Positions 2,837 through 9,565 of a stretch of DNA of 64,000 nucleotides are shown in pieces; positions within the stretch are counted from its first letter, which is position 1; every line of letters starts with the position of its first letter. This DNA is from Xanthobacteraceae bacterium (GTDB lineage: Bacteria; Pseudomonadota; Alphaproteobacteria; Rhizobiales; Xanthobacteraceae). Below the pieces are notes generated by a model. The model was not told where the DNA came from and made no database searches. It worked only from the letters and a program-made list of their open reading frames with translations. The stretch lies in the NCBI GenBank assembly GCA_031291445.1, contig JARLJA010000076.1, forward strand, positions 1-64,000, read 5' to 3'. Both the position numbers and the translations under genes were made by a program.

Positions 2837-3394
2837 ATGTCCCTGTCCCTCGAAACCGAAGCGCCGGGGTCCGGTTCGCCCGGCGTGATCACACCCGGCC
2901 ACGACCGCCTGTTCCGCGACATCACCGACGACCTCGCCGACCGCGGCTTCTTCACCGCCGTGAGCGACGACCTCATCACCTGGGCCCGCACCGGCTCGCT
3001 CTATCCGATGCTGTTCGGGCTCGCCTGCTGCGGCGTCGAGATGATGCAGGTGATCACGCCGCGCTACGACGTCGAGCGCTTCGGCGCCGCGCCGCGGGGC
3101 TCGCCGCGCCAGTCCGACCTGATGATCGTCGCCGGCACGCTGACCAACAAGATGGCGCCGGCGCTGCGCAAGGTCTACGACCAGATGCCGGAGCCGCGCT
3201 ACGTCATCTCGATGGGGTCGTGCGCCAACGGCGGCGGCTACTACCACTATTCCTATTCGGTGGTGCGCGGCTGCGACCGGGTCGTGCCGGTCGACATCTA
3301 CGTGCCGGGCTGCCCGCCGAGTGCGGAAGCCCTGCTCTACGGCATCCTGCTGCTGCAGAAGAAGATCCGCCGCACCGGCACCATCGAGCGGTGA
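2837..3394 (+). CDS. nuoB: NADH-quinone oxidoreductase subunit B-like protein, orphan (no other nuo genes in window)
   Basis: [10 protein letters not shown] ... [53 protein letters not shown]; all N2-cluster Cys present. Confidence 0.92.
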
Positions 3395-3552: not shown

Positions 3553-4533
3553 CTACTTCTTTTTCGCCTTGAGCTCGTTCATCCAGGCGATCGCGTAGGT
3601 GTCGGTCGGATCGATGCGCAGCGCGGCGCTGTAGTCGTCCATCGCCTTGTCGTACTGGCCGGAGAGGAAGTAGGACCGGCCGCGCATGTCATAGTGGTAG
3701 TTGCCCTGCGGATCGAGCGCGATGGCGGCGCCGTAGTCGGCGATCGCCGCGGCGTATTGCTGGGACTCGTAGTAGGCGCGGCCGCGAAACTCGTGGCCGA
3801 ACACCGAATCCGGCTCCATCTGCAGGATCTTGTTGGCGTCGTCGAATTCCAGCCGCCAGTTGCTGAGCGCCTCGTAGATTCCGGCACGCACCACATAGGG
3901 CCAGACCAGCTTGTCGTTCTTGGTGATGGCGATATTGGCCTGTTCCAGTCCCTCGAGGTAGCGCTTCTGGAGGTAGAGGATTCGTCCCCGGTTGGCGTAG
4001 CCGAGCGCGTAGTTGGCGTCGATCGCAACCGCCTTGTCGAAATCCTGCATCGCCCGGTCGTAGTCCTTGAGCACGCGCCAGGCGACCCCGCGGTCGTTGT
4101 GGTAGAGCGCCGTGTTGGGGACGATGGAGATCGCGATGTTGTAGTCGTCGATGGCGTCCCGGTAGTTGTCGGCCGCGGCCAGGGCGGCGGCGCGACGGTA
4201 GTGCCCCTCGGCGATGGCATTGCCTTTCAGCTCACCGGATTTCAGGGCCAGGGTGCAGGCGGCGATGCGGCTCTGGGTCGTGCCCGACCGGCAGGGGCCG
4301 AGCAGATCCTTCGGCGGAGCGAGCGGTGGCGAGGTGTCGCGGTTGTCCGCCGGCGCCTCCGGGTTCGGCTTCGCCCAGGGCACGCCGCCCGCGCCCTGCG
4401 GCTGCCACAGCCAGACGGCACCGATGATGCCGAGCGCGACCGCCTGCGGCAGCATCAGCCAGGCGGCGCGATACCACGGGTCGCCGTACCAAAGCTGGCC
4501 GTGGCTCGGCAGCCAGCGCGCCAGCCCGCTCAT
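3553..4533 (-). CDS. TPR-repeat protein with N-terminal transmembrane segment
   Basis: Likely start MSGLARWLPSHGQLWYGDPWYRAAW at 4533; one hydrophobic segment then repeated TPR units (AIADYGAAIALDPQGNYHYDMRGRSYFLSGQYDKAMDDYSAALRIDP). Confidence 0.85.
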   Translation of the reverse strand: MSGLARWLPSHGQLWYGDPWYRAAWLMLPQAVALGIIGAVWLWQPQGAGGVPWAKPNPEAPADNRDTSPPLAPPKDLLGPCRSGTTQSRIAACTLALKSGELKGNAIAEGHYRRAAALAAADNYRDAIDDYNIAISIVPNTALYHNDRGVAWRVLKDYDRAMQDFDKAVAIDANYALGYANRGRILYLQKRYLEGLEQANIAITKNDKLVWPYVVRAGIYEALSNWRLEFDDANKILQMEPDSVFGHEFRGRAYYESQQYAAAIADYGAAIALDPQGNYHYDMRGRSYFLSGQYDKAMDDYSAALRIDPTDTYAIAWMNELKAKKK

Positions 4534-4594
4534 GGCAGGCCTCGCGGCACGGGTTCGACCGGCGGCAATGCGGCGAGCGGCGGCCACCTCATCG

Positions 4595-5617
4595 CTAGCG
4601 TCTCCGCCGCTGCATGTCGCGGATGTAGCCGAGCGTGTCAGAATCGTTGGGAACGATCCGCATCGCGATCGAATAGTCCAGCGCGGCCTTGTCGTATTCG
4701 TTGAGAAAGTAGTAGGAGCGGCCGCGCAGCCGGTAGGAGTAGATCTCCTGCGGCGCGATCGTGATCGCCTTGGTGAAATCGGCGATCGCCGCCTGGTACT
4801 GCCCGTTCTCGAAGAAGGCGTGACCCCGGTACTCGTAGCCGGTGCGATCGTTCGGCATCAGCTCGATCATCTTGGCGGCGTCCTCGAACATCAGCCGCCA
4901 GCTCTTCAGCTTCTCGAAGATGTTGGCGCGGCCTTCGTAGGCGAGGGTGTTTTTCGGGTCGCGGATCAGCGCGCTGTTCATGTCGCCGAGCGCGTCGTTG
5001 GGGCGATTGGCGGCGATCAGGAGCCAGCCGCGGCTCGCATAGGCTTCCGCGAAATCGGGCTTCAGCGCGATGGTCCGGCTGAAGTCCTCGTAAGCGCGTT
5101 CGTTGTTCTTCAGCACGTCGCGCCAGAGCCGGCCGCGGTCGTTGAAGATGCGGTAATCGTTCGGGGTGAGAGCGATGGCGCGGTTGTAGTCGTCGAGCGC
5201 GAGCTGCGGCTGGTTGACCTGGCGGTAGGCCCAGGCCCGCTGGAAGTAGCCCTCCGGCATCAGGTTGGCCGGCGTCGAGGCCGACGACAACAACAGCGTG
5301 CATGCCTGCACCACCGCGTTCCAGTCGTCGGTGCGCTGGCAGGGCGCCAGCAGGTTCTGTTCGGCCAGCGGAGGCGCCTCGTAGGGCTTCTGCTGCGGCG
5401 GGTTTTGGGCGGGCGGTTCGTCCTTGCGCTCGGCGGGCCGCTTCTCGGACTGCTCGCCCGGCTTCGCCCAGGGAACGTCGCCGGGCGCCGCCGGCCGCGC
5501 CAGCCAGGCCCAGCCGACGACGAACAGCGCGGCGGCCTGCGGCAGCGCCAGCCACGCGGCGCGATACCATGGGTCGTCGTACCAGAGCTTGCCGTGGGCC
5601 GGGATCAGCGACGTCAT
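4595..5617 (-). CDS. TPR-repeat protein with N-terminal transmembrane segment, paralogous to the downstream gene
   Basis: MTSLIPAHGKLWYDDPWYRAAWLALPQAAAL shares its N-terminal motif with 3553..4533; multiple TPR units; ATGA overlap with the upstream AAA gene. Confidence 0.87.
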   Translation of the reverse strand: MTSLIPAHGKLWYDDPWYRAAWLALPQAAALFVVGWAWLARPAAPGDVPWAKPGEQSEKRPAERKDEPPAQNPPQQKPYEAPPLAEQNLLAPCQRTDDWNAVVQACTLLLSSASTPANLMPEGYFQRAWAYRQVNQPQLALDDYNRAIALTPNDYRIFNDRGRLWRDVLKNNERAYEDFSRTIALKPDFAEAYASRGWLLIAANRPNDALGDMNSALIRDPKNTLAYEGRANIFEKLKSWRLMFEDAAKMIELMPNDRTGYEYRGHAFFENGQYQAAIADFTKAITIAPQEIYSYRLRGRSYYFLNEYDKAALDYSIAMRIVPNDSDTLGYIRDMQRRRR

Positions 5618-7512
5618 GACATCTTCCCGGCCGCCTGCATCAGGTCCTCGGTCGTGAGCATGCCGAGATCGGCTGCCGGATCACGCGCGATGCGCATCGC
5701 CTGGGCCTCGCGGGTCCGCTCGAACAGCGTGCGCATCGAGCGCGCATTGCCCCAGTCCGGGCGGCCGATCCGGGTCTCCAGCCAGGGCCCGAGGGCGGCG
5801 GCGAAATTCTCCGGCAGTGAGAAGCGCTGCTGGGCGGCGAGGCCCGCCAGGATCCGGCAGAGTTCGTCGCTGTCGTAGGGGGGGAACGCGATGGTTCTTC
5901 CGAACCGGCTGGCAAGCCCCGGATTGCTGCCGATGAACTCCTCCATCTGGCGGGGGTAGCCGGCGACGATCACCACGATGCGGTCGCGGTTGTCTTCCAT
6001 GAACTTCAGCAGGGTATCGATCGCCTCCTGACCGAAATCCCTCTCGCTTTTTCCCGCCAGCGTGTAGGCCTCGTCGATGAACAGGATGCCGTCGAGCGCG
6101 CTGCGGCAGACATCGAGGGTCTTGATCGCGGTCTGGCCGATGTAACCCGCCACCATGCCGGAGCGGTCGGCCTCGACCAGATGCCCCTTGGTGAGCACCT
6201 TGAGCTGCTGGTAGATCCGGCCGATGCTGCGGGCGACTTCGGTCTTGCCGACGCCGGGCGGTCCGGTGAACACCATGTGCAGCGCGATGTTGGAGACCGG
6301 CAGCCCCTGCTCGCGGCGGCGCTGCTCGACCTCGAGGCGGGCCACCAGCGACGCCACCTCGCTCTTGACCGAGGCGAGGCCGACCATGCGGTCGAGGTCG
6401 GCCAGCGCGTTGTCGAGCGGCGGCGCTGCGGCCTCCTCGCGCACCCCGATGGCCTGTTCGAGATCGGCGATGGTGAGCTGCGACAGATCGGCGTCGGCGT
6501 CGGCGGCGATGCGGATCGCCTGGGCCTCCCGCATCTTCTCCAGCAGCGTGCGCATCTCGCGCGCGTTCGCCCAGTTGTCGGCGCGCGAGCGCTGCGCAAT
6601 CCAGGGCAGCAGCTTGTCCCCGAAGTTCTCCGGGAGGACGAACTGCTGGCGCTTGGCCATGTAGGCCAGGATCTGGCCGAGCTCGTCGGGCGAATATTTC
6701 GGGAATTCGATGGTCTTGGTGAAGCGTCCGGCGAGGCCCGGGTTGGTATCGAGGAAGCGGCGCATCTCGTTGGAATAGCCGGCGACGATCACGATCAGGC
6801 GGTCGCGGTTGTCCTCCATGAACTTCAGAAGCGTGTCGATCGCCTCCTTGCCGAAGTTCTCGCCGGACTCCGATCCGGCGAGCGAGTAGGCCTCGTCGAT
6901 GAACAGGATGCCGTCGAGCGCCTCGCGGCACCGGTCCAGCGTCTTGATCGCGGTCTGGCCGAGATAGCCGGCGACGAGCTGGGCGCGGTCGACCTCGACC
7001 ACGTGGCCCTTCCGCAGCACGTTGAGATTGCGAAGGATCTCGCCGACGCAGCGCGCCACCTCGGTCTTGCCGACGCCGGGCGGCCCGGTGAACACCATGT
7101 GCTGGCTCAGCGCGCCGACTTCGAGGCCGCGCTCGCGCCGCTTCTGCTCGACCTGAACCCGGGCCATCAGCGCCTTGACCTCGCGCTTGACCGGCGCGAT
7201 GCCGACCATGGCCTCGAGCCGTTCCAGCGCGCCGCTCGGCGGCGGTCCGGTCTCTTCCGTTTCGGTGAACGCGATCGGGCGGATCGGCTCGGCGCCGGCG
7301 CTGGCGAGCGCCAGCGCCTTCTGGGTCTGCGACACCCTGAGCGCGATGTAGCCGAAGCTCGCGACCGCGAGCGCCGCGCACAGCCCGATCAGCGCCTTCG
7401 CAAACAGCGGCCCGCCAGCCACGAGCTGCGTTCGCGTGCCGACCAGCGCCACGATCAGCGCCGCGATCACCAGCCCCGCAAGGAGACTCGGCAGCCCGCC
7501 CCTGGAATTCAC
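5614..7512 (-). CDS. Membrane-anchored AAA+ ATPase with two CbxX/CfqX (SpoVK/EccA-like) modules
   Basis: Two copies of GPPGVGKTEVAR (Walker A) and ILFIDEAY (Walker B); N-terminal hydrophobic segments. Confidence 0.92.
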   Translation of the reverse strand: MNSRGGLPSLLAGLVIAALIVALVGTRTQLVAGGPLFAKALIGLCAALAVASFGYIALRVSQTQKALALASAGAEPIRPIAFTETEETGPPPSGALERLEAMVGIAPVKREVKALMARVQVEQKRRERGLEVGALSQHMVFTGPPGVGKTEVARCVGEILRNLNVLRKGHVVEVDRAQLVAGYLGQTAIKTLDRCREALDGILFIDEAYSLAGSESGENFGKEAIDTLLKFMEDNRDRLIVIVAGYSNEMRRFLDTNPGLAGRFTKTIEFPKYSPDELGQILAYMAKRQQFVLPENFGDKLLPWIAQRSRADNWANAREMRTLLEKMREAQAIRIAADADADLSQLTIADLEQAIGVREEAAAPPLDNALADLDRMVGLASVKSEVASLVARLEVEQRRREQGLPVSNIALHMVFTGPPGVGKTEVARSIGRIYQQLKVLTKGHLVEADRSGMVAGYIGQTAIKTLDVCRSALDGILFIDEAYTLAGKSERDFGQEAIDTLLKFMEDNRDRIVVIVAGYPRQMEEFIGSNPGLASRFGRTIAFPPYDSDELCRILAGLAAQQRFSLPENFAAALGPWLETRIGRPDWGNARSMRTLFERTREAQAMRIARDPAADLGMLTTEDLMQAAGKMS

Positions 7513-7560
7513 ACCGTCCTCCTCATCCCGCGCACCGGGCGCCCCATGTCCGTCGTCATC

Positions 7561-8676
7561 TCAGCTCCGCGACATCGCCTGGACCAGGTCATCGAGTTCG
7601 ATCCGCGACAGGTCGGCGTCCGGCTGGCGCGCCACCCGCAGCGCCTGGGCCTCGCGGGCGCGCTCGAACAGCGTGCGCATCTCGCGGGCGTTGGCCCAGC
7701 TGTCGCTCCGGATCCGCTCGTTGACCCAGGTCACCACCTTGGCCTCGAAGCCGTCCGGGAGCACGAAGCGCTGCTTGCGCGCCATCCGCCGCAGGATCTC
7801 GCAGAGGTCCTGCGGGCTGTATTTCGGGAACTCGATGGTCTTGGTGAAGCGGCCGGCAAGCCCGGGATTGGTGTCGATGAAGCGGCGCATCTCGTTGGGA
7901 TAGCCGGCGACGATCACCACGATGCGGTCGCGGTTGTCTTCCATGAACTTGAGCAGCGCGTCGATCGCTTCCTTGCCGAAGTCGCCCTCGGCGCCTGGCG
8001 TGCCGGCAAGCGTATAGGCCTCGTCGATGAACAGGATGCCGTCGAGCGCCTTGCGGCACATCTCCAGCGTCTTCGGCGCGGTCTGGCCGATCCAGCCGGC
8101 GACGAGGCTCGAGCGATCGACCTCGATCAGGTGGCCCGACCGCAGCGCCTTGAGCGAGCGGAAGATGGCGCCGAGCGCCCGGGCGACTTCGGTCTTGCCG
8201 ACACCGGGCGGACCGGTGAACACCATGTGCATGCTGGTGGAAGCCACCGGCAGGCCCTGTTCGCGGCGCTTCCGTTCGATCTGCAGCCGCGCGATCAGCG
8301 AATTGACCTCGCGCTTCACCGCGGCCAGCCCGACCATCTCCTCCAGCGCCTCGATGGCGTCGTTCGGCGACTGCTCGGCGACGGTTCGTTGCGGCGCGAA
8401 CATCAGCGCCAGCGCATCGGATGCGCCGGTCCCGGCCGGTTGCGCTGCGCCGCCCCGGGCGGCGATGGCGACGATGTAGCTCACCATCAGTCCGATCGCG
8501 ACCAGGCCGCAGATCAGCACGCCGGAGGTGATCTCCGATTGCGTCGCGGCGTCCAGCAGCTTGAACCAGCCGAGCGGCCCGGTCTCGGGATTGAGGATCC
8601 AGGCCGCGATCACCGCGCCGGCGATGCCGACGATGGTGAAGCCCAGCATCTGGTGGTCGCGAAAGAAGTTCTTCAC
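7561..8676 (-). CDS. Membrane-anchored AAA+ ATPase, single CbxX/CfqX module
   Basis: N-terminal hydrophobic segments; GPPGVGKTEVARALG, GILFIDEAYTLAG. Confidence 0.92.
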   Translation of the reverse strand: MKNFFRDHQMLGFTIVGIAGAVIAAWILNPETGPLGWFKLLDAATQSEITSGVLICGLVAIGLMVSYIVAIAARGGAAQPAGTGASDALALMFAPQRTVAEQSPNDAIEALEEMVGLAAVKREVNSLIARLQIERKRREQGLPVASTSMHMVFTGPPGVGKTEVARALGAIFRSLKALRSGHLIEVDRSSLVAGWIGQTAPKTLEMCRKALDGILFIDEAYTLAGTPGAEGDFGKEAIDALLKFMEDNRDRIVVIVAGYPNEMRRFIDTNPGLAGRFTKTIEFPKYSPQDLCEILRRMARKQRFVLPDGFEAKVVTWVNERIRSDSWANAREMRTLFERAREAQALRVARQPDADLSRIELDDLVQAMSRS

Positions 8677-8692
8677 GGCACGCGGCTCCGCA

Positions 8693-9247
8693 TCAGCAGG
8701 GCTTCCTGGGAACCCACCAGACCGAGATCGGGCTCGATCCCTTGAGGGCTTCGATGTTGACGGCCGGGTAGAGACTGACCACGGCGCCGCTGGCCTCCCC
8801 CTCGACGTTGAGGGTGCCGATGCCGGTCGGGTAGGGCGTCGGGAACGGGATTGCCACGCGCTGCGGCGTGTCCCCGAGGGTGAAGGCCGGCGAGACGTAG
8901 GAGCCGGAGCGGATCCGGATCACGCCCGGTGCGGTCCCCGGCTTTTTTGCAATGGTGATGGCCGCCATCGGCGTCTTGCAGCTCTTGGCCTCTTCGACCG
9001 CATTGGCTGCCTGCGCGCTCAGCGTCGCCGCCGCCGCGGCGATGTCGCCCTGGGCGACGATCGCGATCTCCGAGCCGTTCGACGGGGTGCCGTGCATTCG
9101 GGCGCCGATGACCGTGGCGCCGACGACGAGCGCGGCGCCGATCCCGACCACCGCCATCAGGGTGCCGCCGCCTCCCGCCGATTTGCCGCCGCCGGCTCCC
9201 GCGCCGGTGGCGACCTGTTGGTTTGGAGGGTCGGCTGGATCTGGCAT
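8693..9247 (-). CDS. Hypothetical single-pass membrane protein; first gene of the AAA/TPR cluster
   Basis: Gly/Pro-rich N-terminus, one TM (GTLMAVVGIGAALVVGATVIG), then a soluble domain; co-directional and closely spaced with the downstream AAA genes. Confidence 0.7.
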   Translation of the reverse strand: MPDPADPPNQQVATGAGAGGGKSAGGGGTLMAVVGIGAALVVGATVIGARMHGTPSNGSEIAIVAQGDIAAAAATLSAQAANAVEEAKSCKTPMAAITIAKKPGTAPGVIRIRSGSYVSPAFTLGDTPQRVAIPFPTPYPTGIGTLNVEGEASGAVVSLYPAVNIEALKGSSPISVWWVPRKPC

Positions 9248-9461
9248 GGACCTGTTCCTGACCTCAGAAACTACCGGAGGGCGTCAAAGCCATCGCGTTG
9301 GCTGAAGCCCGTCATTTGATCGTCATTCTATCGGACGCACCGGGCATACTGGCCCGCTGATCGTATGCGGCAATCGGAGCCATATCCGCGCCAATCCTCC
9401 CCGCTTGATCACACAACGTCAAGGGCCGGCGGGCAAGGCCGTCACGCGTCCGCATCGTCCA

Positions 9462-9565
9462 GTCGACATCTGCATGTCGGGCCGTTTGCCGAGTGCGGAA
9501 GCGCTGCTCTACGGCATCCTGCTGCTCCGGAAAAGATCCGTCGCAGCGGCACCATCGAGCGGTGA
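9462..9565 (+). pseudogene. Remnant copy of the nuoB 3' end
   Basis: Hand alignment to 3290..3394: 91 of 105 columns identical with one 1-nt deletion; shares gccgagtgcggaagc, ctgctctacggcatcctgctgct and ggcaccatcgagcggtga. Confidence 0.9.

Follow-up and report, generated by a model that had tools for sequence, protein, structure and literature searches.

The window analysed here, the whole of a 64,000-nucleotide (nt) stretch of Xanthobacteraceae bacterium DNA (assembly GCA_031291445.1, contig JARLJA010000076.1, positions 1 to 64,000), contains an operon of five co-directional genes, g1, g2, g3, g4 and g5 in reading order from position 9247 to position 3553 on the minus strand. These genes encode a small protein with one transmembrane segment (TM), two AAA-family ATPases comprising three AAA modules, and two proteins with TPR repeats that share a conserved membrane-proximal segment, designated the WY anchor. 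The five tightly packed genes assigned to this position in a preliminary description are confirmed by the open reading frames (ORFs), with spacings of 16 nt (g1/g2), 48 nt (g2/g3) and 7 nt (g4/g5) and a 4-nt overlap (g3/g4). The features, all on the minus strand, are as follows.

8693-9247 (-): g1, one-TM protein, 184 amino acids (aa) (ORF)
7561-8676 (-): g2, TM hairpin and one AAA module, 371 aa (ORF, Pfam)
8191-8214 (-): Walker A motif GPPGVGKT of the g2 module (motif scan)
5614-7512 (-): g3, TM hairpin and two tandem AAA modules, 632 aa (ORF, Pfam)
7063-7086 (-): Walker A motif of g3 module 1 (motif scan)
6241-6264 (-): Walker A motif of g3 module 2 (motif scan)
4595-5617 (-): g4, WY anchor, TM and TPR, with repeats predicted to be periplasmic, 340 aa (ORF, Pfam)
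5459-5596 (-): WY anchor of g4, HGKLWYDDPWYRAAWLALPQ-TM-WAKP (alignment; DNA repeat D5)
3553-4587 (-): g5, WY anchor, TM and TPR, paralogue of g4, 344 aa (ORF, Pfam)
4366-4503 (-): WY anchor of g5 (alignment; DNA repeat D5)

The start of g5 is likelier to be the ATG at 4533 than that at 4587, because the latter would add an 18-aa Arg-rich extension which is unseen in relatives; the g4/g5 spacing would then be 61 nt. Pfam recognises one AAA/AAA_lid_6 pair in g2 and two such pairs in g3, as well as TPR in g4 and g5. N-terminal hydrophobic segments, previously attributed to all five proteins, are retrieved by hydropathy in four of them (two each in g2 and g3, one each in g1 and g5), whereas the corresponding segment of g4, AALFVVGWAWL, falls under a simple cut-off and lies within an aligned anchor that passes it in most relatives. 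A sigma-70 promoter scan found no match.

The operon is one member of a cassette that is inherited as a unit. When the genome contigs were scanned with g2, three Methylobacterium loci were retrieved at 61-65% identity, all other matches being at or below 49%. Their g2 and g3 counterparts are syntenic (~60% and 58-64% identity), g1 (36-41%) precedes g2 in the two loci not cut by a contig end, and the AAA genes are followed by two or three proteins having little beyond an N-terminal stretch in common with g4/g5. A g1 profile searched against 398 genomes of the order retrieved the window, a genome resembling Methylobacterium, and two from a single large genus within the window's family, probably Bradyrhizobium; strong matches were then found in 13 of 199 species of that genus and in 9 of 248 of Methylobacterium's family. 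At each of the 27 g1 loci, a cassette-clade AAA gene is located directly downstream, followed by a gene for a WY-anchored protein (27/27; the two divergent loci L147 and L149 were read by eye, and L137, at a contig end, was confirmed separately). An independent WY-anchor search of the 199 genomes gave 13 strong matches (E <=6e-16) in the same 13 genomes as g1, and in the sample of the window's class WY anchors occur only in the two genomes that also possess g1. Four weak matches of either profile in other genomes (E >=5e-4) were taken as noise. The five genes are thus not scattered among relatives, and the literature searched (subscription papers being outside its scope) yielded no account of the cassette, in agreement with the preliminary claim of an undescribed, co-inherited operon, which had nevertheless missed the obligatory nature of g1, the anchor common to g4 and g5, and a protease fusion found in relatives. 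All cassette relatives are alphaproteobacterial, some of the hosts being soil and plant-associated bacteria.

As a separate observation, the three Methylobacterium cassettes (L009:17275-19409, L010:15896-18943 and L095:13942-16121) are followed by a gene for a secreted, Cys-rich protein of ~440 aa and by at least one gene for a secreted protein of another type; the examples of both kinds that were tested have no Pfam match.

The motors of the cassette keep their ATPase motifs. Each of the three AAA modules in the window contains GPPGVGKT, LFIDEAY, a conserved Arg after NPGL and a sensor-2 NAR, so that the Walker A and Walker B motifs are retained as first described, and the motifs are intact in all 47 cassette AAA modules scanned. 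Sensor-1 AGY (demanded by the scan pattern itself) and NxGLxxR are likewise present in 47/47, and a GNAR-type sensor 2 in nearly all. The modules carry the sensor-1 GY, the Asn that precedes the first Arg finger, and the sensor-2 Arg by which PMC10659427 defines the SpoVK/CbbX/EccA clade, and the nearest solved structures are CbbX (3zuh/3syk) and EccA1 (9lur). At position N+4, two residues before the conserved Arg, 46 of the 47 cassette modules have A, S or P, whereas CbbX and EccA1 have Arg; this position may correspond to the first Arg finger of PMC10659427. Loss of the Arg finger, an idea raised by the small residue, was ruled out by the Arg at N+6 in 47/47 cassette and 57/57 control modules.

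In a quick tree with some long branches, the AAA modules from every locus group in one clade (97% in the SH-like approximate likelihood ratio test, SH-aLRT), which also includes those of the conjugation-linked relatives L105 and L158 and excludes the CbbX of the window's genome as well as the Firmicutes and actinobacterial relatives. The tree gives no support for matching the three modules one to one between species as orthologues, and suggests repeated duplication or gene conversion. In the chains examined by hydropathy, the N-terminus ahead of the AAA part contains one or two hydrophobic segments, in most cases a hairpin, and three architectures occur: a single module; a one-module chain together with a two-module chain (window, L096 and Methylobacterium); and two modules with a C-terminal trypsin-like domain. 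L105 (4983-9131) and L158 (6706-12219) each contain a TM-anchored CbbX-clade AAA gene, a TraG-type coupling-protein gene and genes for a small TM protein and a secreted protein.

The non-ATPase partners combine a constant membrane-proximal part with a domain that changes. The WY anchor common to g4, g5 and their counterparts has the signature H..LW..D.(W)YR..W...PQ, a hydrophobic stretch (TM) and W.KP, in which H, W, Y, P and P are invariant and R and W near-invariant. The paralogues g4 and g5 are 41% identical, and the anchor copies within them, constituting DNA repeat D5, are 78% identical as DNA. Behind the anchor the domain may be TPR (window, L096 and several loci), Sel1 (L096, L097/L098 and relatives), Sel1 with PG_binding_1 (the latter in L010) or an unrelated domain of another fold (L147-L149). 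Since a constant segment before changing periplasmic parts is what would be expected of a docking element, the anchor may dock to the motor, and the repeats of g4/g5 are, judging from hydropathy and the domains of relatives, probably in the periplasm.

The partner g1 consists of a disordered cytosolic N-tail, one TM and a C-terminal β-sandwich of ~120 aa, predicted to be periplasmic and modelled confidently by AlphaFold2 after residue 60 (predicted local distance difference test, pLDDT, >90 for most of 60-180). Residues C90 and C184 (window numbering) are invariant in 23 sequences, which also share a Y.SP motif, and the invariant Cys pair argues for a disulphide-bonded periplasmic domain. No family match to g1 was found in Pfam, NCBIfam, PADLOC or PHROG, and a fold comparison with the PDB gave no match at E <= 0.001, the best being weak β-sandwich matches (NPC2, MmpS) that were not used. 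Outside the order, two weak g1 matches only (E 6e-4) were found in a phylum sample, one at L158 beside a CbbX-like AAA gene and a TraG-like gene, the other at L159 without these.

In two lineages (L097, L098, L131-L134, L147 and L148), though not in the window, the two-module ATPase is fused to a C-terminal Trypsin_2 domain (Pfam E 1e-25 to 6e-32 in the four fusions tested). The His/Asp/Ser triad residues are present in all eight fusions, and protease activity is accordingly predicted from these residues. These fusions contradict a generalisation in PMC10659427, whose survey of the SpoVK/CbbX/EccA clade states that no association with peptidases was found; that statement is an observation and not part of the definition of the clade.

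Taken together, the parts themselves, the intact ATPase and protease motifs, the co-inheritance, and an anchor that stays constant where the periplasmic domain varies support the membrane-tethered AAA/TPR cassette proposed earlier, and lead us to consider, with a probability of roughly one half, a membrane-tethered AAA remodelling machine with WY-docked adaptors in the periplasm and, in two lineages, a link to proteolysis. In such a machine, g2 and g3 would be anchored by their TM hairpins with the AAA rings on the cytosolic face, the tandem modules of g3 forming a double ring. The adaptors g4 and g5 would dock to the motor through a short cytosolic or interfacial WY anchor and one TM, their periplasmic TPR domains collecting clients or reading the envelope, and g1, as the obligatory partner, would contribute a periplasmic β-sandwich held by a disulphide bond. 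CbbX pulls on the tail of Rubisco, and membership of the same AAA clade suggests that the cassette motors may similarly pull on the tail of a dedicated target. ATP-driven pulling on the tails of anchored proteins or clients would then remodel or extract envelope proteins, and in two lineages the product would be handed to the fused trypsin-like protease, which, like the AAA part, should be cytosolic if the topology is correct. That topology is deduced from hydropathy, Cys pairs and the peptidoglycan-binding-like domains of relatives; together with complex formation, pulling and a role in envelope quality control, it is what we infer from the genes.

Several points weigh against this interpretation. 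Interaction, localisation, substrate and phenotype are all deduced, and the orientation of g4/g5 is based on hydropathy and on the domains of relatives. Most cassette members are without a protease, so that degradation cannot be the general output. The cassette is also patchy, most species in each group lacking it, and hence dispensable, which makes a core envelope role unlikely.

Among the alternatives, the one that survives best is a receptor-controlled cytosolic chaperone, in which the TPR/Sel1 proteins and g1 would sense the envelope while the AAA proteins act on a single cytosolic enzyme of envelope synthesis. It would accord with the activation of MurG by SpoVK and the link of EccA1 to mycolate synthesis (both given in PMC10659427), with the peptidoglycan-binding-like domains of some WY proteins, and with the LuxR-type response-regulator gene located divergently beside the Methylobacterium cassettes, but a pure activator is at odds with the protease fusion and no constant envelope enzyme adjoins the cassettes, and we regard it as unlikely. 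An accessory function in secretion or conjugation, in which an EccA-like chaperone would load some transport system, appears more doubtful still. AAA genes of the same clade adjoin a conjugative coupling-protein gene at L105 (a conjugative plasmid) and at L158, where a weak g1-like ORF is also present (E 5e-5); virB8, B9, B10 and B11-like ORFs were recognised by eye immediately upstream of a cassette that encodes two WY proteins (L141:1-3444); and one cassette resides on a Methylobacterium plasmid. Most cassettes, however, are situated among housekeeping genes without secretion or transfer genes nearby, and none of the latter occur in the 14 kb of the window examined.

The operon is bordered by a direct repeat, whose two copies lie on the opposite strand.

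3287-3394 (+): 3' end of a nuoB-like gene (2837-3394), left copy of the repeat (Oxidored_q6 match)
9459-9565 (+): degraded second nuoB-like 3' end, right of the operon (122-bp match, 85%)

The arrangement resembles what an insertion of the cassette at this end of the gene, or its transfer along with it, would leave. A repeat of the nuoB type was found at none of 25 other loci and is thus unique to the window, and no empty site was found in three congeners, for which reasons an integrated mobile element was not adopted as the origin. Further to the left, two small ORFs (2046-2632) resemble, by eye, a Doc/Fic-type toxin and an AbrB/MazE-type antitoxin.

The least probable alternative, a mobile and sporadic anti-phage or other conflict system, could draw on the patchy distribution (13/199 and 9/248 genomes), the 122-bp repeat, a genome with two cassette copies, the insertion sequence (IS)-like genes around L148 and the TM-anchored Sel1 proteins of iSTAND ternary conflict systems (PMC7159879), but it is countered by the common chromosomal site of the cassette in several species of the large genus (L136-L140), by the lack of an effector domain in most members, by PADLOC (2023) returning weak generic AAA and TPR matches only (the best being IetA, 6e-18 over both modules) and by the absence of any defence gene recognised by eye in the neighbourhoods inspected, so that the defence role suggested at first is not upheld.

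The remodelling machine preferred here is of interest because the CbbX/SpoVK/EccA clade is described in PMC10659427 as dedicated chaperones without a peptidase link, whereas the cassette represents a membrane-bound branch of it whose partners are constant and whose periplasmic domains can be exchanged, and which in some species carries a fused serine protease. If correct, it would provide a route for cytosolic ATP to reach the periplasm, and the occurrence of members with and without the protease would be a natural experiment on the change from chaperone to protease. Apart from g1 and the WY anchor, the parts of the cassette are known domains. Their combination of a CbbX-clade motor, an anchor with exchangeable periplasmic receptors and an obligatory g1 may, tentatively, constitute a new class of membrane AAA machine, which the trypsin-like domain of two lineages would turn into an ATP-dependent serine protease of the membrane that differs from FtsH, Lon and Clp.

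Comparison with the named families sets the cassette apart from each of them. The proposal of a split EccA does not hold, as the TPR of EccA is N-terminal and in one soluble, cytosolic chain with its AAA module, whereas here the AAA modules follow TM hairpins and the TPR is in separate, anchored proteins; each module falls well short of the TIGR03922 cut-off of 466.65 bits, g2 reaching 248, and g3 attains 469.7 only by summing two modules. What is shared with EccA is the pairing of TPR with CbxX-type AAA and a link to the envelope. SpoVK was rejected on similar grounds (TIGR02881 cut-off 423; g2 250 bits; g3 511 only as a two-module sum) and because it comprises proteins of sporulating Firmicutes as against the alphaproteobacterial relatives found here. 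Tandem-module chains such as g3 are therefore an annotation trap: having passed the SpoVK and EccA cut-offs by summed modules only, g3 would be misnamed by automatic annotation. CbbX was likewise rejected, each module scoring 220-224 bits against the TIGR02880 cut-off of 459. The same genome encodes a true CbbX elsewhere (L154, G000:C130:89743-90594; 523 bits), adjoined by cbbS- and cbbL-like ORFs, and the operon AAA proteins are consequently not its Rubisco activase. The earlier statement that Rubisco and ESX genes are lacking is thus valid for the cluster, no ESX components having been recognised by eye among the genes called near the cassettes, but not, as regards Rubisco, for the genome.

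MoxR-vWA and iSTAND ternary conflict systems (PMC7159879) resemble the cassette in combining an NTPase with TM-anchored Sel1-type proteins, and differ in their MoxR, vWA and β-propeller components, which the cassette is without; that paper mentions trypsin-like domains, and does not mention CbxX, CbbX or EccA. With the SpoVK/CbbX/EccA clade as a whole, the cassette shares the Walker motifs, the GY sensor 1, the NxG before the Arg finger and AAA_lid_6, and it differs by a TM hairpin in place of a soluble N-domain, by one or two modules per chain (three in the window), by the obligatory g1 and WY partners and, in some members, by the protease fusion. FtsH and other membrane AAA proteases consist of a membrane hairpin, a cytosolic AAA module and a zinc metalloprotease. 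The first two elements and the C-terminal position of the protease domain recur in two cassette lineages, in which a Trypsin_2 serine protease takes the place of the metalloprotease, most other members carrying none. In PMC10659427, the CbbX clade is placed as sister to FtsH.

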